Assembly: GCA_902524945.1 (NCBI GenBank)
Contig: CABZFF010000006.1
Coordinates: 1-64,000, forward strand
DNA from: an uncultured Pelagibacteraceae bacterium
GTDB lineage: Bacteria; Pseudomonadota; Alphaproteobacteria; Pelagibacterales; Pelagibacteraceae
Length of the DNA stretch: 64,000 nt
Reading direction: 5' to 3'
How positions within the stretch are numbered: the first letter of the stretch is position 1; every line of letters begins with the position of its first letter. The notes beneath the pieces were generated by a model. It did not search any database and was not told the origin of the DNA. It saw nothing but the letters and a program-made list of their open reading frames with translations. This document shows, piece by piece, positions 52,321-62,952 of the stretch. The translations under genes were made by a program, and so were the position numbers.

Positions 52321-53415
52321 TTAAACCTCCTTAATAAGAGTTTTGCTTATTATTTCATCCTCTAAATTTATATTAAAAACTTTTTTCTCCCTACTATACA
52401 AATTTCTTATAAAGCTAAATAAATTTTTTGCGTATAAATTTGATGCGGTCAAAGGCAATCTATTCATTAAGTTTTTAACACCAATTATTTTTACTCCATT
52501 AATATTATTTATTTTTCCAACTTCTGAAAACGCAGAATTTCCACCTTGTTCAGTCGCTAAATCATAAATTATTGAACCAGGTTTCATTAATTTTACTAAT
52601 TCTTCGTTCAAAATTCTTGGCGCTGGTTTTCCAGGTATCAAAGCAGTGCAAATAACAATATCGTTCTTTTTCAAAGCATCGCGCATCATCTCAGCCTGTT
52701 TTTTTTTGTATTCTTCGCTTAATTCTTTAGCATATCCACCTGAAGTTTCCATATCTTCCTTTTGATCAACTGTTAAAAATTTTCCTCCTAAACTTTCTAC
52801 TTGTTCTTTTGATGCAGATCTTACATCCGTAGCGGATACTATCGCTCCTAATCTTTTAGCTGTAGCAATAGCTTGTAATCCAGCTACTCCGGCCCCAATT
52901 ACTAAAATCTTAGCAGCAGGTACTGTTCCAGCTGCAGTCATCATCATTGGAATGGCTTTTTCAAATTCATAAATAGAGTCTATTACCGATCTATAACCCG
53001 CTAAATTAGACTGAGATGATAAAACATCCATGGATTGAGCTCTAGTTATACGAGGCAAAAGCTCTAAAGAGAAAACGTTTATTTTTTTTTTTGTTAATTG
53101 ATTAAGTTTATTTTTATTCTTACTTGGATTTAACATACCAATTAAAGTAATATCTTCTTTTAAATAATCAATTTCTTCATCTAAAGGACAATTCACTTTT
53201 ACCAATAGATTACATTGTTTTAGTACATCTAATGAAGAATTTTTTATTTCTACTCCAACATTTTCATACTCCTTATCGGCTATTCCAATATGAGATGCAT
53301 AATTTTTTTCGATACAAATTTTAAGTCCAAGACCAATAATATTTTTTGCAGCTTCAGGTGTTAAAGAAACTCTTTTTTCTTGCGATAAATCTTCTTTTGT
53401 TGATCCAATTATCAT
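52321..53415 (-). CDS. pntAA: NAD(P) transhydrogenase subunit alpha, NAD-binding part
   Basis: The soluble 364-residue NAD(H)-binding subunit, similar to alanine dehydrogenase. It has GSTKEDLSQEKRVSLTPEAA, the nucleotide-binding VIGAGVAGLQAIATAKRLGA, TDVRSASKEQVESLGGKF and DLATEQGGN. It lacks the C-terminal membrane helices of the fused E. coli PntA, consistent with the split three-subunit arrangement. The tiny cox subunit IV gene precedes it by 19 bases. Confidence 0.97.
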   Translation of the reverse strand: MIIGSTKEDLSQEKRVSLTPEAAKNIIGLGLKICIEKNYASHIGIADKEYENVGVEIKNSSLDVLKQCNLLVKVNCPLDEEIDYLKEDITLIGMLNPSKNKNKLNQLTKKKINVFSLELLPRITRAQSMDVLSSQSNLAGYRSVIDSIYEFEKAIPMMMTAAGTVPAAKILVIGAGVAGLQAIATAKRLGAIVSATDVRSASKEQVESLGGKFLTVDQKEDMETSGGYAKELSEEYKKKQAEMMRDALKKNDIVICTALIPGKPAPRILNEELVKLMKPGSIIYDLATEQGGNSAFSEVGKINNINGVKIIGVKNLMNRLPLTASNLYAKNLFSFIRNLYSREKKVFNINLEDEIISKTLIKEV

Positions 53416-53887: not shown

Positions 53888-55093
53888 CTATGTTTTTTGA
53901 TTACTAATAAAATTAAAAAAATTTTTATAATTTTTGGCCATCTTTTTTGAGGAGAATGATTTATCTATAAGAGTTTTGCCGACTTTACTTCTCTGTTTCC
54001 AGGCACTCTTATTTTTTACGAAATTTAGTAATGCTAATTTTAGTTCATTTTTATTATTTGGCTTAATTAATTTTGAATTTTTATTATTTAAAAATTCCAT
54101 TACACCTCCAACTTTTGTTGCTAAAACAGGAGTTTTTGCGGATAAAGCCTCTGCCAAAGAAAGTCCAAAGCCTTCAAAATCTTTTGTAAGCGAAATTAAT
54201 AAATCAAGTTTTTTAAGAATTTTAAAACTATCCTCGTGAATATAACCTGTAATCACAAAGTATTTTCTTAAATTAAGATTATTTAACTTTTGCTTAAGTT
54301 CTATTAAATATTCTTTCGAACAATTACCAATAAAGTAAACTTTAATTTTTTTCTTAATTTTGCATGGTAATTCGTTAAATGCATTAATTAAATCCTCGTG
54401 TCCTTTGTTTTTTTCAACTCTTGATAATATTCCTATTTTTAAAGTTTTAGAGTTTTTAAATAATTTATTAATTTTTGTTAAACTTTTATCATCTGGATTA
54501 TTTTTAACTCCATTATAAATTATTTTTGTTTTTAATTTTGGTGAAAATAAGTTTGTGTTCAATTTAATATTTTTCTTCGTAGCTTTTGAAACAAAGATTA
54601 AACCATTTATGCTTTTATTAATTAAATAATCAATCATTCTTAGTAAAAAGTTCCAAATATAAGGCTTGGTGAATGAGTGATGAATTAATAACAACTTAGT
54701 TGGAAACTTTAAAAAATTACTTGCTAAAATACCAGAAACCTCAGACCTAAAATCTCCATATCCGCCACACTCAGCTAATAAGATATCAAATCTATAATTT
54801 TTGAGTATGAAAAAAAATTGTATTATAGACATAAAAAATAAAAAAGGTCTTAAAATGAAAAAGATGAATTTTAAGATTATATTTTTAAAAAAAATTACAT
54901 TTAAGGAATTATAATAATGAAATTTTACATTTTTTTCTTTCAACTTTTTTTTTAAGATTAAAGTTGCCTTATTTGTCCTATTAGTAAAGATTACAAATTC
55001 ATAACTTTTAAATACTTTGTCATTTAAAAGATTTTCTAAATGAGTTGTAACACCACCCGGTTCGAAATTTTCCCATAAAATTCCAATTTTCAT
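53888..55093 (-). CDS. GT4 family glycosyltransferase
   Basis: A 401-residue GT-B enzyme. The N-terminal half has ILWENFEPGGVTTHLENLL (acceptor side) and a hydrophobic stretch near residues 70-95. The C-terminal half has IGILSRVEKNKGHEDLINAF, then the donor-binding E-x7-E region FEGFGLSLAEALSAKTPVLATKVGGVMEFL. It probably extends a lipopolysaccharide or capsule glycan. It is the first gene right of the 5S rRNA and the last of the leftward accessory series, 38 bases after the sulfatase-GDPD gene. Confidence 0.94.
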   Translation of the reverse strand: MKIGILWENFEPGGVTTHLENLLNDKVFKSYEFVIFTNRTNKATLILKKKLKEKNVKFHYYNSLNVIFFKNIILKFIFFILRPFLFFMSIIQFFFILKNYRFDILLAECGGYGDFRSEVSGILASNFLKFPTKLLLIHHSFTKPYIWNFLLRMIDYLINKSINGLIFVSKATKKNIKLNTNLFSPKLKTKIIYNGVKNNPDDKSLTKINKLFKNSKTLKIGILSRVEKNKGHEDLINAFNELPCKIKKKIKVYFIGNCSKEYLIELKQKLNNLNLRKYFVITGYIHEDSFKILKKLDLLISLTKDFEGFGLSLAEALSAKTPVLATKVGGVMEFLNNKNSKLIKPNNKNELKLALLNFVKNKSAWKQRSKVGKTLIDKSFSSKKMAKNYKNFFNFISNQKT

Positions 55094-55131
55094 AAATATA
55101 AATAATGTGTTTTAAATTTTATCTTTTAATT

Positions 55132-57606
55132 TTAATTTAGATTATTAGCAAACTGGTCATTTTTTAATAATATAATACCAATATTATCATTAGAAATAAT
55201 TTCATTGAATGAATTTAGATTTTCTATATTCCAAATATGCCATTTATAATTTTTAAAATCTTTAAAATTCTTTATTGCTTTGTATCCAGAAAAATTAAAT
55301 GTAATAGAGCCAATTTTAGTATTATTTAAAAATTTTATGATTTCTTTGAATTTTTTATCACACTTAAATTTCTCTTCTGCTTTTAAATTTTCCTCAGAAC
55401 AATTATTTAAGAAAGATGTTGGCATGTAATAAGCTATCTCAACGTTATTTAAATTATTAATCTCATCTATACAATCTTTCCATTCTTGATTTTCTAAATT
55501 TTCTATTGATGAGGTGGGTGTTTCAACTAAGGCACTTAAATAATTTTTTGAGTTCTTTCTTATCCAATTAGAAGCGAATTTACATTGTTTAGTTTCATCT
55601 ATGTTTTTCGAGTCAAACCAAATTGTATTTTTTTGAAAATTCGATTTAAAAAAATCATCAATTATCAAATTTGTGTCATTCTGTAATCCATGTGCAGATA
55701 AAGCTTTGTCTTTGAAAAAAAGAATATCTGTCTCAAAACATCCATTAGATAAAGAGGATTGAAATTGATTAATAAACGAATTCGCTCGATGCTTACATAC
55801 TAAGTTTTTTATATTTTGATTATCTGAAAGTTTTTTGCTTTTTAAAAAATTATTTAGTTGCCAAAGAGTAATACTGGTATCTTGTTTAGAAAATTTTTTT
55901 TCAAGATAAGTGTCACCTTTTAAACTTCCTTCAAATTCCCAATAAACAGGAACTTTGCTTAAAATTCCATCCAGATCGATTCTATCGTAGATAAATTTTG
56001 ATTCTAAACTTTTAAATTTATCTGCTTTGTACAAAACTTCTTTTTTTTTATTTAATACATCGATATCATTCAAATAAAGTATAATGTCACTCAATACTTT
56101 TAGGGTGAGGTTTTTACTTTCTAATTTTTTTAACTTATCAAATTTTTCTTTATAAATATTATAAGCACTGTCGTTAAAAAAAATAATTAAGGGCACATGT
56201 AACATTTCATATGTAAGGCGGCTAGAATCGTGACCTCTTGCTGATGCTGGAGACTCACCATGATCTGAAAAATAAATAAATATCATTGGCTGAGAATTTT
56301 TTTCAAAATTTGAAAAACTACAATTATAAACTTCACCGATTGTTTTATCTATATACTTCATGACTGAGTCGTATTCGCTTATTAATTTAAAATTTCTAAA
56401 ATCTTTACCCAAAAAATTTTTTTTATTGATGTAATTTGGATATTGAAAACCTATCTGATTTGGAATTGTATCTAGATATCCTCCATATTGTCCGTGACCT
56501 GCGTATGAGTGAAGTATTGATAAAGTAGAAGAGTTATTTTTAAAAATATCGTTATTTTGACAAAAGCTTTCATAAAAAAAGTCATGGTCTTTTATTTTTG
56601 GCTTATATCTATTGCCAAGAAATTTTCTTGAGTTATCAAAATTTTCCTCTTTTAAGTTCCAAGGATAAATTTGATCTTTAGTATTAAAAACCAACTTAGT
56701 TGCATGATTGTGACCACCATAAGATCCTTGGGTACTAAATAAAAAAGTTTTAATATCAGTTTTATTTAGTACATCAACAATAGACAAATTATTTTTCTGA
56801 TGATTATGTATTAAAGAACAATCCTCTTTTGGTTGATTTATACAAAGAGAGAACGCACTCCATAATGCGTCGACTGTATGGGTATGGGATGCATAAACTC
56901 TATCAAATTTGATAAATTTTTTATTCTTCTCTAGTAATTTACTCAGTCTCGGAGTGGTTTCAAAAGGATATCCATATAAACTTAGATTTAGTGCAGAGGT
57001 GCTTTCTCCAACATATACTATAGTACTTAAGGGATTATTTGAATTTCTTTTTACTTCATAGTTCAAAATATTTTTTTTAAATTCGTTTTCAATTTTTGTT
57101 AAATGTTCTCCAACTTCTAAACTTGATTTTGCAAGCGATAATATTAAATAAAAACCAAAAACTAACGCAACGAAAAGTATAAAATTAAAGTACCTACTTA
57201 AAATTAATATATCAATTTTTCTTGTTTTGAAGAAGTATTTTATAAACAGATAAATAGTCATTGAGCTAGCAAATGAACTTAAAAATATTAACCAAAAACG
57301 TCTTCTTCTGAATATCTCGGGATCTAATAAAAAAGAAAAAAAAGTATTTGTATAAAATATAGCTTCACCTAAATCTGCATTTAATTCACTAAGCGAGTCC
57401 TGGCCAATAGAAGCAAAAAATTCTGGCAAATATGAATAATGATAAAATAGAAAAAATAAAGGAAGCAAAGCTGTAAAACAACTTTTAAAAAAATTATTTT
57501 TTTCAATAAAAGAATAAATAGAGTAAAAAAATAATAAAACTAATGAAGTAAATACCAAAAGTTCTTCGACAAATATTGTTAAAAAGATTTTATATATGAA
57601 TTCCAT
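55132..57606 (-). CDS. Membrane sulfatase/phosphoethanolamine-transferase-like protein fused to a GDPD-like domain
   Basis: An 824-residue fusion. Residues 1-160 hold about four to five membrane helices. Residues about 190-530 form an alkaline-phosphatase-fold domain like EptA-type phosphoethanolamine transferases: VGESTSALNLSLYGYPFETTPRL with Glu201 and Ser202 where EptA has Glu and the Thr nucleophile, His371, and SDHGES (447-452). Residues about 600-824 resemble a glycerophosphodiesterase barrel: His606-Arg607 (KHRANS), Glu625-x-Asp627 (FETDIL), His639 and Asp665-x-Lys667. EptA relatives move phosphoethanolamine from lipid to glycan at the periplasmic face, leaving diacylglycerol. The extra domain could act on glycerophosphodiesters. 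It follows the VTC gene by 3 bases. Confidence 0.78.
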   Translation of the reverse strand: MEFIYKIFLTIFVEELLVFTSLVLLFFYSIYSFIEKNNFFKSCFTALLPLFFLFYHYSYLPEFFASIGQDSLSELNADLGEAIFYTNTFFSFLLDPEIFRRRRFWLIFLSSFASSMTIYLFIKYFFKTRKIDILILSRYFNFILFVALVFGFYLILSLAKSSLEVGEHLTKIENEFKKNILNYEVKRNSNNPLSTIVYVGESTSALNLSLYGYPFETTPRLSKLLEKNKKFIKFDRVYASHTHTVDALWSAFSLCINQPKEDCSLIHNHQKNNLSIVDVLNKTDIKTFLFSTQGSYGGHNHATKLVFNTKDQIYPWNLKEENFDNSRKFLGNRYKPKIKDHDFFYESFCQNNDIFKNNSSTLSILHSYAGHGQYGGYLDTIPNQIGFQYPNYINKKNFLGKDFRNFKLISEYDSVMKYIDKTIGEVYNCSFSNFEKNSQPMIFIYFSDHGESPASARGHDSSRLTYEMLHVPLIIFFNDSAYNIYKEKFDKLKKLESKNLTLKVLSDIILYLNDIDVLNKKKEVLYKADKFKSLESKFIYDRIDLDGILSKVPVYWEFEGSLKGDTYLEKKFSKQDTSITLWQLNNFLKSKKLSDNQNIKNLVCKHRANSFINQFQSSLSNGCFETDILFFKDKALSAHGLQNDTNLIIDDFFKSNFQKNTIWFDSKNIDETKQCKFASNWIRKNSKNYLSALVETPTSSIENLENQEWKDCIDEINNLNNVEIAYYMPTSFLNNCSEENLKAEEKFKCDKKFKEIIKFLNNTKIGSITFNFSGYKAIKNFKDFKNYKWHIWNIENLNSFNEIISNDNIGIILLKNDQFANNLN

Positions 57607-57609
57607 CTA

Positions 57610-58356
57610 TTATTCTGAGGTTTCACTTCTCACTTTACAATTGCATACACCTAAAACAAATTTAGAAATCGATCTCCTGTTTAAATTATATGATTGTATA
57701 ATTCTATGAAACCAAGCAGGAATACTTCTTTCAAACTTTACCTCTAGAATTGAATTGCCTGGCTTGTATTCTAATGGAAATTTAAATTTTTTATCATTCT
57801 CAAATAAATTTCCTGTTTTCGTCGAAATCAAATCAGAGTCAAAGGTTAATCTAAAGTATAAGCCAAATTTGTTTATTAAAGGCCTTCTGTTGTAATCAAT
57901 CATTATCTTAGGTTTGATATTTTTTCTTTTTACATCATAAATAAAATCTTTTATTAGATCATTACCGTTATATTTTTTACTTAATTCATCTAAATTTTTT
58001 AAAGTCTCAAAGTATTTTATGTCATTTTTATCAATCATAATTCTTTTTTTAATTATTCTGTCATGAGCTCTACCTTTCATTTCAAAAAAAACTGGGCTTT
58101 TAGAATTAAAACTTTTACCGTAGCTCCTTAATCTAAATTTCTTTCTTACTTTAATCCCATCTACTTTTTCAAAAAAATTGCTATAATCATTATTGTCAAA
58201 ATATAATGATCTAACCAAGTATTTATGATTTTTACTTTTCGAGGCAAAATTATCAATATTCATGAAATTTAAAGATTGATTAAATATTTCATTTGAAATT
58301 TTTGAACTCATGAAATATTTAAACTCGTATCTTAAAAAAATTCTATTATCGATCAT
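57610..58356 (-). CDS. VTC-domain (polyphosphate polymerase-like) protein
   Basis: A 248-residue VTC/triphosphate-tunnel protein. Typical blocks are RYEFKY (9-14), VRSLYFDN (48-55), DGIKVRKKFRLRSY (66-79), the charged strand FFEMKGR (90-96), IMIDYNRRP and the C-terminal SILEVKFERSIPAWFHRII. In yeast Vtc4 the same fold polymerises phosphate from ATP; bacterial homologues are mostly uncharacterised. No membrane segment is seen, so a cytoplasmic face is likely. It overlaps the CotH gene by one base. Polyphosphate synthesis is a family-based guess; capping or transfer of a nucleotide is also possible. Confidence 0.88.
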   Translation of the reverse strand: MIDNRIFLRYEFKYFMSSKISNEIFNQSLNFMNIDNFASKSKNHKYLVRSLYFDNNDYSNFFEKVDGIKVRKKFRLRSYGKSFNSKSPVFFEMKGRAHDRIIKKRIMIDKNDIKYFETLKNLDELSKKYNGNDLIKDFIYDVKRKNIKPKIMIDYNRRPLINKFGLYFRLTFDSDLISTKTGNLFENDKKFKFPLEYKPGNSILEVKFERSIPAWFHRIIQSYNLNRRSISKFVLGVCNCKVRSETSE

Positions 58357-61010
58357 TAATTTTTATTTTGAGAAAAATTTTTACCTATTATTTTTTTTCT
58401 ACCTTTAATTTTTGTGTTAAATATTTCAATTTTAGAATTTTGTATTAAGTTTGTATCTTTTTTTTTATTAAAATCTTCAGGATCCATTGTGGTCACAAAC
58501 TTGTTTTCTTCAGACTCGATTAATGAGTCAAAAACTTGAGCATTACCACCATTTCCATAACGCCAATTTTTTGCATAACTTGCTAATTGAATCTCATTGT
58601 TTGAAAAAATTACATCAAAAAATTTTCCTTTTGAGCTATCCTTTATTGCTGCTCCAATTTTATTATTTTTAAAAATTGAATTCTTTATAATCACATCTGA
58701 ATTTTCACCGATAGAGACTCCTTTGTCTTGTGAGTTAACCACCTCTAAATTTTCAATTATCGCTTTGGATTCCATAAAGTCTACTCCATCATTTTTGGAA
58801 TCTTTAATTTTGACATTTTTAAGTATAACGTTATTTGAAATATCAATATCTATTGCATCGCTATAAGCGTTTTTAATTTCAATATTTTTTAATAAAATAT
58901 TTGATGAATAAATAATATGAATTGTATCATCAAACAATTCATTAAATGAAAATTTTGAATTTGATAATTTTATATCGGAGGAGTTATGAATTGATAACAT
59001 AGATAAAAACTTATATTGATTTAAATTACCCCCACTACCACCTTGAAAAATTACGTTATCCAAAATACTCTCTTTAGAACCTTTGCCAATTATAGCTACT
59101 GTGCCCCAAGGTTTATCCCCTTTTTGATTTTTTTTGAAAATTATAGGCAACTCTTTTGTTCCCTCAGCTGATACTTTTCTTTTAAATACAATGTGTTTAT
59201 TCGGTTTAATCAAAAATTTAGTTCCTGGAAGTATCTTGACCTCATTTTCAAAAATTAAATTTTTATCGACTAAGATTGTTCCATTCAAAGAAATAGTTTT
59301 TGGTATTTTATTTACCTCCAAATTTACAATATTATTTGATACATTAGCTTTGACTGCACTTTTAAATTTTTTCTCTTGTAATATGAAATTTTTTTTACTA
59401 AAAAAATTTAAACTTTCAATCTGTGTTGGAACTGCACCGTTATTTGCGATCATTCTGAAATAAGTGTTAGAATGATTAATTTTATAATTGTGAAATTTAG
59501 TGCTAAGATTATTATTTTGTTTGAATCTATTTGAATAAAAAGCAAGAGGTATTTTGAATCTGTTAATTTCTTGATCCACAAAAAATTTTGGCTCATTTTC
59601 CTCAATTATATTATTGTAATTAACATCTACACCTACCCATTCAGGCATTAGATCATCGGGAAATTTTATTTTTAAATTAAATAAAGGAGTATAACCATTA
59701 ACAGATACATCAAAATTTTTTAAGTTTTTGTTCCATGAACTTTCTGGATTATCATTTAAAATTTTCAGAAGTTTGTTTTTATTCTTAGATAGCATTGAAA
59801 GAATTCTTTTCATCTCTTGATGATGATCTTTACCTCTTACATCATAAGGTTCCTTTTTTTGTACGGTGATAAGGTCTTCTCTGATTTTTTCGATATTTAA
59901 TTCAACTTTTTCAATTACATCATTTTCAAAAAGATAATGGTAAATCCATTGATATTTTTTATGGATGTAATTAGTGTTTTTATTTAGGAAAGTATTCAAA
60001 TCATTTGAGCTAAAATCCAATTCAAAGTCATCTCTAGATGCCATACCAGGGTCGACGATAAGTTGAGTAATTTTTCCATTCCATGGATCTAATATTAATC
60101 TCATATTATGGAAAAAATCGTGGTGAACATTGTTAGTAATTGTTAAAAAAGCATCGAATTTAGAAAAGTAATCTATATCTATATAATCATTTAAAGAAGG
60201 ATCTGAGTAATATTTATTTGATTTAAGTGTTTTAAGGAATTTTTTAAGATCTTTAGTGCTATTAGGATTTTCTTGATTAAAAATTGCTAATTTTGACCAA
60301 ATATTTGGATTATTAAATAGATTTCTATTTAGTCCTATATGGTACTCTGTAGCGTGATTTTCTCCCTTGTAAATGTTCGTAGGCATTAATTTATTTTTTC
60401 TTAAAAAAGTCTCATCGATTCTTTCTTGCTCAATATATAAACCGTTTGACTCACCATTTACATAAAGTTCTACTAAATTATATTTTTGAGTGATGAGACC
60501 CATATTTTCAGAAATGAAATATGGGAGGTATTTATCGGCTTTAAATATTTTGTAATCATAATATCTATATCCATCAATCAACTCATTTCGTCTTGTTTTA
60601 ATTCTCAATTGTTTTTTTTGATTTAACCAATTAATTGGATTATCGCCTCTAAATCTCAATCTAATTTCTTGAAAATTAATTTTTTTGTTGGGATAATTAA
60701 TATATGCCTCTACCCAATCCTTAGTAGACTGTGGTAAATTACTTAAAAGTTTTCTTGAATTTTGCTCGCTTACAAAAATACTTACTCGAGGAAAGTTGGT
60801 TTGGTAAGTTTTGTCAAAAATTTTATTTTTAAATTTTTTCAATTCTGAAAAAAAAATCTGTTTTGGCCAAGAGAAATTTGTTTGATACACATGAGCAGAT
60901 TGATAACCAAATTGATATTCAAACTTTAAAACCTTAAAAGAAAAAAGCAGGAAAATTCCAAGAATTACAGGTAATACGTAAGGGTAAAGTATTTTAATTA
61001 TTTTTCTCAT
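58356..61010 (-). CDS. CotH-kinase-like protein with C-terminal parallel beta-helix
   Basis: An 884-residue exported protein. A membrane anchor lies at about residues 7-25. A CotH-type atypical kinase region follows, with RLRFRGD (117-123), the CotH signature NGLYIEQERID (189-199), HHDFFHN (296-302) and DPWNGKITQLIVDPG (308-322). A beta-sandwich-like stretch leads to a right-handed parallel beta-helix from about 590 to 870 with repeated NNVILKNVKIKDS-type turns. CotH of Bacillus phosphorylates spore-coat proteins; functions elsewhere are unknown. It overlaps the VTC gene by one base and follows the TPR gene by one. The kinase motifs are divergent, so activity is uncertain. Confidence 0.82.
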   Translation of the reverse strand: MRKIIKILYPYVLPVILGIFLLFSFKVLKFEYQFGYQSAHVYQTNFSWPKQIFFSELKKFKNKIFDKTYQTNFPRVSIFVSEQNSRKLLSNLPQSTKDWVEAYINYPNKKINFQEIRLRFRGDNPINWLNQKKQLRIKTRRNELIDGYRYYDYKIFKADKYLPYFISENMGLITQKYNLVELYVNGESNGLYIEQERIDETFLRKNKLMPTNIYKGENHATEYHIGLNRNLFNNPNIWSKLAIFNQENPNSTKDLKKFLKTLKSNKYYSDPSLNDYIDIDYFSKFDAFLTITNNVHHDFFHNMRLILDPWNGKITQLIVDPGMASRDDFELDFSSNDLNTFLNKNTNYIHKKYQWIYHYLFENDVIEKVELNIEKIREDLITVQKKEPYDVRGKDHHQEMKRILSMLSKNKNKLLKILNDNPESSWNKNLKNFDVSVNGYTPLFNLKIKFPDDLMPEWVGVDVNYNNIIEENEPKFFVDQEINRFKIPLAFYSNRFKQNNNLSTKFHNYKINHSNTYFRMIANNGAVPTQIESLNFFSKKNFILQEKKFKSAVKANVSNNIVNLEVNKIPKTISLNGTILVDKNLIFENEVKILPGTKFLIKPNKHIVFKRKVSAEGTKELPIIFKKNQKGDKPWGTVAIIGKGSKESILDNVIFQGGSGGNLNQYKFLSMLSIHNSSDIKLSNSKFSFNELFDDTIHIIYSSNILLKNIEIKNAYSDAIDIDISNNVILKNVKIKDSKNDGVDFMESKAIIENLEVVNSQDKGVSIGENSDVIIKNSIFKNNKIGAAIKDSSKGKFFDVIFSNNEIQLASYAKNWRYGNGGNAQVFDSLIESEENKFVTTMDPEDFNKKKDTNLIQNSKIEIFNTKIKGRKKIIGKNFSQNKN

Positions 61011-61011
61011 A

Positions 61012-62040
61012 CTATTTGCAAGAAGAATTGACTAAATTTAATTTATCAAATTTCATCGTAAATATAATTTTATCTATTTTCTTATAAACTTGATCAAGTC
61101 TTAAATTTACTATTTCATTATTTTCTGCAGAAAAAAAAATCTGATTTTGAGAAGTATTATTATTAAAAAAGGTATTCTTAGATAAAATTACTAAATCTTT
61201 TTCTGAAATATCATAGATGTTATTTTCTGAAAAAAGTTTTAAATTTTTTATCTCTAAACTAACACCAGGATTAAAACTAAAAATCATTTTTATCAATGAA
61301 ATATTAAATGGCTTCTCAGGAATTAATTCATATTGATCAAATTTACCATTATTAATTCCTCTAATGATATAATCGTTTTCATCTTTAGATTTTAAAGTCT
61401 CAAGCCTAATTGCAAAATCATTAAAATTAAAACCATCGAATTTAGTTAATTGAAATCTTTTTTGTTTTCCTCCAAATTCAGATTCTAAATATTTGTTACA
61501 ATAAAAATTAAACTTTTCAGTATTTTTTTGATTTAAAAAAATCTGCAAAGCAAGTCTGTAAGGTTCTGGGTCCAAGGGTGATAGAGCTATAGCTTTATCT
61601 ATTTCTATTACTGACTCTTCAATTTTATTGTTCGCATATAACGATTTAGCATACCATATTTTGGCTTCATACAATGAAGGATCTAAATTAGTTAATTTTA
61701 AAAAAAATTCTTCTAAAGCGCCATAATTTTTTTCATCGACGATACTAGATTGTACTAAATTTGCCACGTCATAAATACCAATAAGTAATCTACTTTTTCC
61801 ACTAGATATTTTTTCCGAAACTATAATAAAATTTTTAAGTTTATTATTGATTAAATTATAATCTGGTTCTGGTTGCTTTAGGAGGGTTTGCATTGAAACT
61901 ATCATATAAATTTTATAACTATTTAAAACTGAATTTAATGTTGATTTTCTAAGATTTGTATTAAAAGTAATCAGAAAAAGAGCTAACAGAAATAAAAAAA
62001 ATATTAGTAAAAAAAACTTTTTGTAAATATTTTTAAACAT
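61012..62040 (-). CDS. Membrane-anchored TPR-like protein of the CotH/VTC cassette
   Basis: A 342-residue protein with one N-terminal membrane helix (about 7-27), then helical repeats in residues about 90-190 that fit TPR units (SLYEAKIWYAKSLYANNKIEESVIEIDKAIALSPLDPEPYRLALQIFL). A beta-rich C-terminal domain (residues about 195-340) matches nothing I recognise. It is probably periplasmic, tethered to the inner membrane. Its place between DUF4956 and CotH, with gaps of 17 and 1 bases, suggests a scaffold for the cassette. Confidence 0.75.
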   Translation of the reverse strand: MFKNIYKKFFLLIFFLFLLALFLITFNTNLRKSTLNSVLNSYKIYMIVSMQTLLKQPEPDYNLINNKLKNFIIVSEKISSGKSRLLIGIYDVANLVQSSIVDEKNYGALEEFFLKLTNLDPSLYEAKIWYAKSLYANNKIEESVIEIDKAIALSPLDPEPYRLALQIFLNQKNTEKFNFYCNKYLESEFGGKQKRFQLTKFDGFNFNDFAIRLETLKSKDENDYIIRGINNGKFDQYELIPEKPFNISLIKMIFSFNPGVSLEIKNLKLFSENNIYDISEKDLVILSKNTFFNNNTSQNQIFFSAENNEIVNLRLDQVYKKIDKIIFTMKFDKLNLVNSSCK

Positions 62041-62057
62041 TTAGAGTAAAAGGGAAA

Positions 62058-62750
62058 CTAATAATCGACATCACTTTTAGCAGCAATAATTACAATTTCT
62101 TTTAATCCTTTAATTTTTGAAAGTTCTGACAACAGGTCAGTTTGGTTTAGTTCATCTTTCAACACAATATCAAAACTCACTTTTATGCTTTTGCTATCTT
62201 CAGAGCTCTCTGAACTTAGTAGAGTTGATGATTTGGAGAATTTAGAAATAGTTTTGTTGAAAAGTTTTGAAATTTCAGAATTGTTTGATGGGGTTCTAAA
62301 TTGTAAAATAAATTCACTCTTTATTATTGAGCCAAAATTGGTTTTATGTAAAATCAATGCTATTGAGCTTATTATGAATGTCCCCGAGATAGCTAAGAAA
62401 TAGCTCCCTGTTCCAGCAGCCATACCTGCAGCAAGAGACCAAAAAATATAAGCTGTATCTTTTGTATCTTTTACAACTGTTCTAAATCTAATAATTGAGA
62501 GAGCTCCAACCAAAGCAAATGCTCTTGCTAAGCTGTTTCCTATTATCATAATTACCATACAAACAATAACTGCAACAAAAATATTTGTTATCATAAAAGA
62601 TTGGGAATAACTTAATCCTTTATGAGTAAATTTATAAATTACAGAAATTATTAATCCTAATATAAATGATAGAATTAAATTAATAATTATTTCTTGTGGA
62701 AGATAAATTGAAGTAAAACTGTCAGCTATATTTTGTAAATTATTATTCAT
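62058..62750 (-). CDS. DUF4956 family membrane protein
   Basis: A 230-residue protein with four membrane helices in residues about 20-140, including the family hallmark ALVGALSIIRFRTVVKDTKDTAYIFWSLAAGMAAGTG, and a soluble C-terminal domain (about 145-230) of ferredoxin-like alternation. DUF4956 proteins have no proven function; genes for them are commonly found beside VTC and CotH genes, as here. It is the first gene of the leftward five-gene cassette. The ATG is at 62750, with no obvious Shine-Dalgarno. Confidence 0.88.
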   Translation of the reverse strand: MNNNLQNIADSFTSIYLPQEIIINLILSFILGLIISVIYKFTHKGLSYSQSFMITNIFVAVIVCMVIMIIGNSLARAFALVGALSIIRFRTVVKDTKDTAYIFWSLAAGMAAGTGSYFLAISGTFIISSIALILHKTNFGSIIKSEFILQFRTPSNNSEISKLFNKTISKFSKSSTLLSSESSEDSKSIKVSFDIVLKDELNQTDLLSELSKIKGLKEIVIIAAKSDVDY

Positions 62751-62877: not shown

Positions 62878-62952
62878 TGGTGGGACTAGCAAGAATCGAA
62901 CTTGCCACCCCTTCGATGTCAACGAAGTGCTCTACCGATGAGCTATAGTCCC
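62878..62952 (-). tRNA. tRNA-Val (anticodon GAC)
   Basis: The reverse strand folds with acceptor stem GGGACTA/TAGTCCC, D stem GCTC/GAGC, anticodon stem CTTCG/CGAAG around TTGACAT (anticodon GAC, codons GUC/GUU), T stem GCAAG/CTTGC, discriminator A and an encoded CCA, 75 bases in all. It lies between the sugar-nucleotide genes and the DUF4956 cassette. Confidence 0.96.

Follow-up and report, generated by a model that had tools for sequence, protein, structure and literature searches.

Three gene families, DUF4956, VTC and CotH, have been described side by side next to the pel genes of streptococci, clostridia, and bifidobacteria (PMC7112168). In Streptococcus intermedius, deletion of the DUF4956-type gene raised Pel, deletion of the CotH gene lowered it, and both mutants aggregated less; the authors of that study did not find the three-gene arrangement beyond the Pel locus (PMC12345266). 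A Clostridium perfringens locus holds VTC and CotH genes together with a chitin-synthase-like gene (PMC2879425). In the yeast VTC complex, synthesis and translocation of polyphosphate are coupled (PMC9911596). In this study, we analyzed a stretch of 64,000 nucleotides from an uncultured Pelagibacteraceae bacterium (assembly GCA_902524945.1, contig CABZFF010000006.1, positions 1 to 64,000; hereafter, the window), in which the same three families are adjacent on a single strand. The source genome is an AT-rich draft of ~1 Mb, 87% complete. A sequence-only reading of the window had proposed five genes, for DUF4956, tetratricopeptide repeat (TPR), CotH, VTC, and sulfatase-glycerophosphodiester phosphodiesterase (GDPD) proteins, as one undescribed functional set. 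We conclude that the conserved unit is three genes, DUF4956, VTC, and CotH, not five. Our preferred reading, with a probability of roughly 0.4, is a three-gene module with an optional TPR partner, carried on a tRNA-adjacent accessory cassette, in which polyphosphate made by VTC would pass through DUF4956 and serve surface phosphorylation by CotH.

The gene calls of the earlier reading were correct. Open reading frame calls reproduced five minus-strand genes with the same coordinates and with intergenic gaps of 17, 1, -1, and 3 bases, ARAGORN and Pfam confirmed the flanking tRNA-Val and GT4 gene, and Pfam matches, counted above the curated cut-offs, confirmed DUF4956, CotH with Beta_helix, VTC, and Sulfatase (E 1.5e-19) (Table 1). 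The word 'undescribed' was too strong, since DUF4956-VTC-CotH is known beside pel (PMC7112168) and has in part been deletion-tested (PMC12345266).

The conserved unit was delimited by a survey of the genus that started from VTC and is thus free of DUF4956 query bias. VTC was found in 39 of 169 genus genomes at 42 places (distinct matches), and 40 VTC loci, the window included, were examined. CotH adjoins VTC in all 40. DUF4956 is adjacent in each of the 34 loci whose contig continues at that point; the loci cut by a contig end (L106, L141, L143, L150, L155, and L158) stand outside this count. At one locus (L149), an opposite-strand gene separates DUF4956 from CotH. The TPR gene is present in three of the 40 loci (the window, L013, and L106), that is, in two of the 39 others, and the sulfatase gene in none of those 39. 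The source genome also carries a second, divergent VTC-CotH-DUF4956 trio (G000:C1, L012:9548-13101), which lies 47 bases from a tRNA-Met and beside a GT61 gene.

These counts bear on the proposal that the trio and the sulfatase-GDPD and TPR proteins together act on a single surface polymer that contains phosphate. The five genes do share one strand, small gaps, and one insertion. However, elsewhere in the window neighboring genes on one strand are separated by a median of 3.5 bases, and by no more than 20 bases in 27 of 38 cases; short gaps being typical of the window, spacing alone is no proof of a functional unit, and tight spacing was rejected as a sign of shared function. The absence of the sulfatase gene from every other VTC locus, together with the position of its homologues beside pntAB or lpt/kdsD genes, makes a five-gene system very improbable, and for the sulfatase the idea is largely refuted. 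Rare co-occurrence, which the sequence-only reading had itself named as grounds for refutation, was observed for the sulfatase-GDPD gene and, very nearly, for the TPR gene. A promoter scan returned no more sites than shuffled sequences did.

The module is spread over many phyla. A scan with the DUF4956 alignment gave 80 loci in Proteobacteria, Planctomycetes, Chloroflexi, Acidobacteria, Firmicutes, Spirochaetes, and others. With our own models, VTC was found at most 3 kb away on the same strand in 71 of the 80 and CotH in 53, and Pfam added CotH in six more neighboring proteins. DUF4956 was used because the VTC alignment has no stretch conserved enough for a scan of genome contigs; the survey is therefore biased towards DUF4956 and favors loci nearest to the window protein, and these proportions are not population values. 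In a phylum-wide VTC search, DUF4956 stood beside VTC in G097 (two loci), G143, G159 (contig C3), G173, G181, and G233; the second G159 locus (L159) is outside this result. PelG had no match in 12 trio- or VTC-carrying genomes, the source genome (87% complete) included. The module thus occurs without PelG and is not bound to Pel, which cannot serve to define it. The loci studied here resemble the Gram-positive cotH-PPP-DUF4956 genes (PMC7112168; SIR_1592-1594, PMC12345266) in joining the same three families in one operon in a surface polysaccharide context, and differ from them in the lack of PelG, the TPR partner, and the tRNA-adjacent cassette.

Two variants were observed. At L116:9121-12272, a phosphate transporter of the PHO4 family comes after DUF4956-VTC, and CotH was not detected; this may be a phosphate-handling variant. 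At L030, L046, L074, L091, and L100, Cthe_2159 carbohydrate-binding proteins adjoin VTC-DUF4956 with no CotH nearby, as if they were its substitute.

The VTC protein carries tunnel residues of the yeast polymerase. In the PDB, a profile of 39 sequences matched yeast Vtc4 best (E 2e-23), with Vtc2 and Vtc3 behind it; a PDB search with the window VTC as a single sequence gave chance-level matches only. Nine Vtc4 tunnel residues, K200, R264, R266, K281, K294, R361, R373, E426, and K458, correspond to positions that do not vary among the 39 bacterial homologues, an observation that is new here. Substitutions at R264, R266, and E426 were used to inactivate yeast VTC (PMC9911596), and Arg264 and Arg266 have been reported as essential (PMC8749416). 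The VTC active-site residues, which the sequence-only reading had left to be checked, are present. Compared with the yeast complex (Vtc4/Vtc1), the tunnel fold and the nine catalytic or tunnel residues are the same, whereas K455 and R253 are not kept, the window protein is a VTC domain alone with no SPX, no hydrophobic segment, and no fused membrane domain, its membrane partner is the unrelated-looking DUF4956, and CotH is added.

The protein lacks the SPX domain and the membrane domain of yeast Vtc4, which would also suit another member of the triphosphate-tunnel superfamily, a short-chain triphosphatase or cyclase, with the module as a signalling device; tunnel enzymes of this superfamily have several activities (PMC4641920). 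However, in the PDB the profile matches only VTC subunits, the catalytic Vtc4 first, and we regard this alternative as a long shot.

PPK1 had no match in the source genome (G000) or in G032, both incomplete drafts with two VTC trios, and it is present in other VTC genomes and in many relatives. VTC as a replacement for PPK1 was rejected because other VTC genomes possess PPK1. The same distribution bears on a phosphate store, in which VTC and DUF4956 would place a polyphosphate reserve in the periplasm and CotH or its substitutes would retain it at the surface. Such a store would fit the DUF4956-VTC-PHO4 neighborhood of L116 and the two PPK1-negative genomes with two VTC copies each, but PPK1 in the other VTC genomes speaks against it and the constant presence of CotH in the genus would go unexplained, so that we consider it quite improbable.

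The CotH protein consists of an N-terminal membrane anchor, a CotH kinase-like domain (residues ~55-430), a middle domain, and a right-handed beta-helix (~570-850). Pfam matched CotH at E 3e-12 and Beta_helix at E 9e-15. The AlphaFold2 model (predicted local distance difference test score, pLDDT, 82.7) found Bacillus cereus CotH 5jda as the best match in a structure search (target template modelling score, TM-score, 0.77; E 7e-15), which agrees with the earlier CotH call. The kinase-like fold is shared with the Bacillus spore-coat kinase (5jd9/5jda), from which the protein differs by its N-terminal membrane anchor, its extra beta-helix, and the lack of spores. An FN3 domain, rather than a beta-helix, has been reported for SIR_1594 (PMC12345266). 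The next structure matches were GH87 glucanases, AlgG, and polygalacturonases (GH28). With the GH87 and GH28 enzymes and the AlgG epimerase the protein shares a right-handed beta-helix with stacked Asp residues, at low similarity.

The beta-helix is the better conserved part of the protein. Among 17 homologues, its mean conservation was 0.45 versus 0.38 for the kinase part, and 29 versus nine positions were near-invariant. D695, D718, D721, D744, K790, and S793 are invariant and D741 is nearly so. New here is the fusion of CotH to a beta-helix that resembles polysaccharide enzymes and has an Asp ladder of higher conservation than the kinase part. In a weak profile alignment (E 5e-4), D718 and D741 align with Asp-rich turns of a GH87 glucanase, and one of the three GH87 catalytic Asp residues is Asn in the window protein. 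D298 and D320, which align with what we take to be the active site of B. cereus CotH, are present in the window protein, and each is replaced in several homologues. In the CotH protein of L026:5786-9097, the stretch between kinase and beta-helix matches the C-terminal part of the upstream TPR family (E 5e-13), a sequence match which suggests a domain shared between the CotH protein and that family.

The motif GALSIxRFR of DUF4956 does not vary among 83 homologues; R90 and G109 were not part of the search pattern. The invariant arginines adjoin membrane segments, and the protein is weakly MgtC-like (Pfam MgtC E 5e-4). The TPR call of the sequence-only reading stood in part: Pfam gave no match, and the N-terminal hydrophobic helix and the TPR proteins at the same position in other phyla are in its favor. 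Proteins with the layout of the TPR gene lie directly upstream of CotH-beta-helix genes in loci of other phyla (L022-L024, L026, and L028). Profile similarity between them and the window protein is weak, so that outside the genus the likeness is one of position and layout only; the TPR alignment, like that of the GDPD-like domain below, has few sequences.

Starting from the observed linkage, folds, conserved residues, and N-terminal anchor, we infer a polymerase activity, a channel, a phosphate donor, and a substrate. VTC, a stripped-down Vtc4, would polymerize the gamma-phosphates of adenosine triphosphate (ATP) into polyphosphate in the cytosol. By analogy with yeast, where the two steps are coupled (PMC9911596), DUF4956 would replace the Vtc1-type channel and let the chain pass through the inner membrane. 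On the outer side of that membrane, the anchored CotH protein would phosphorylate a surface glycan or an exported protein, and the beta-helix may hold, trim, or process the glycan. ATP is scarce outside the cytosol; for this reason, the exported polyphosphate would be the phosphate donor there. The PHO4 locus L116, the Cthe_2159 partners in other phyla, and the S. intermedius deletion phenotypes are hints of such a mechanism. Four points weigh against it. The literature search found no bacterial VTC of this type with measured polymerase activity. For the S. intermedius mutant that lacks only the VTC gene SIR_1593, no change in Pel was reported (PMC12345266). Homology of DUF4956 to Vtc1 was not supported by any test made. 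The Asp aligned with D298 is replaced in several CotH homologues, some of which may thus be pseudokinases. A more specific version, an extracytosolic system in which a minimal VTC-DUF4956 pair would export the energy of ATP as polyphosphate and CotH-beta-helix would phosphorylate a surface polysaccharide, is unlikely; if true, polyphosphate export would explain how an exported kinase gets its phosphate donor.

The S. intermedius phenotypes can also be read as exopolysaccharide tuning, in which the trio would set the amount, processing, or anchoring of the polymer, CotH and the beta-helix acting on the glycan and VTC and DUF4956 sensing phosphate or energy. The opposite effects of the DUF4956-type and CotH deletions on Pel, the position of the trio beside pel genes in Gram-positives (PMC7112168), and the glycan genes that abut the window cassette all favor tuning. 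However, the catalytic residues of VTC, being invariant, point to an enzyme rather than a sensor, and the cassette also occupies slots away from glycan clusters (L106). Tuning is possible but doubtful, and polyphosphate-dependent surface phosphorylation is retained as the preferred reading.

Table 1. Features of the cassette and its surroundings in the window (positions on the forward strand).
Feature	Position	Strand	Length and basis
DUF4956 membrane protein, core gene 1	62058-62750	minus	230 aa; Pfam DUF4956 E 7e-16
TPR-like protein, optional partner	61012-62040	minus	342 aa; single N-terminal membrane helix
CotH + middle domain + beta-helix, core gene 2	58356-61010	minus	884 aa; Pfam, AlphaFold2 model
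VTC tunnel-domain protein, core gene 3	57610-58356	minus	248 aa; Pfam E 3e-37
EptC/CptA-like sulfatase-superfamily transferase + GDPD-like TIM barrel	55132-57606	minus	824 aa; neighbor outside the conserved module
GT4 glycosyltransferase, within the same insertion	53888-55093	minus	Pfam; no comparable block in sister genomes
tRNA-Val(GAC), insertion-site landmark	62878-62952	minus	ARAGORN; 0.4-0.9 kb from pntA in sister genomes
pntA-type transhydrogenase alpha subunit, other edge of the slot	52321-53415	minus	conserved neighbor of tRNA-Val

Ten sister genomes have ~0.4-0.9 kb between tRNA-Val and pntA and no comparable gene block in that interval, and hence the block 53888-62750 is best read as inserted between tRNA-Val and pntA. 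On the far side of the tRNA, the sister genomes carry mostly surface-glycan genes, those of L124 being 66% and 75% identical to the window's. The closest relative of the cassette (G391; VTC 62% identical) lies 21 bases from a tRNA-Leu. A tRNA, of one of several types, is found no further than ~1 kb away from about 18 of the 40 cassettes; since many of these share a slot in related genomes, they do not count as independent events. In L149, the tRNA-Val slot holds a trio of a different type. Repeat searches at the insertion edges returned AT-rich chance matches only. Across L121-L130, the tRNA-Val/pntA site borders a surface-glycan region of variable gene content, and a few of these sister genomes carry cassettes, on the pntA side.

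The sulfatase-GDPD gene is a passenger: it occupies the same insertion slot but is a surface-modification gene in its own right. Its sulfatase part resembles the EptC/CptA phosphoethanolamine transferases, with the GEST motif region and SDHGES, and the C-terminal 254 residues are predicted to form a TIM barrel (mean pLDDT 76.7) as in GDPDs; the protein differs from both in fusing the two. The GDPD 3qvq was the best PDB match of the barrel, at a modest E of 1.3e-3 and a query TM-score of 0.46 (2otd was also listed), and Pfam gave no match. H606, E625, D627, H639, and K667 of this domain are invariant in five homologues. Full-length homologues with 46-60% identity were found in three other genus genomes (four of 169 in all), and one more fusion was found among 289 class-level genomes (G623, 863 aa, another family), beside pntB and pntA. 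In G008, the neighbors include an ABC ATPase, presumably of an lpt-cluster type, and a KdsD-like SIS-CBS protein; judged by gene sizes, G300 shares this order. The G377 homologue lies between tRNA-Val and pntA. Among the genomes with a sulfatase homologue, only G300 has VTC, on another contig. The EptC-like/GDPD-like fusion stands beside pntA or pntB in three genomes (window 55132-57606, L108:8715-11189, and L132:8561-11152).

The earlier suggestion of a phosphate polymer or surface phosphorylation remains the most reasonable guess for this locus. The module occurs in many phyla and has so far been assigned only a partial deletion phenotype in one Streptococcus; the unit is now separated from its passengers, and VTC R75/R77/E205, DUF4956 R88/R90, CotH D298/D320, and beta-helix D718/D741 are candidate residues for mutation. 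If the proposed mechanism is true, it would give bacteria a VTC-type way to polyphosphate that is separate from PPK and would provide exported kinases with phosphate; for an AT-rich genome of ~1 Mb, it would also be a surface trait costly in phosphate.

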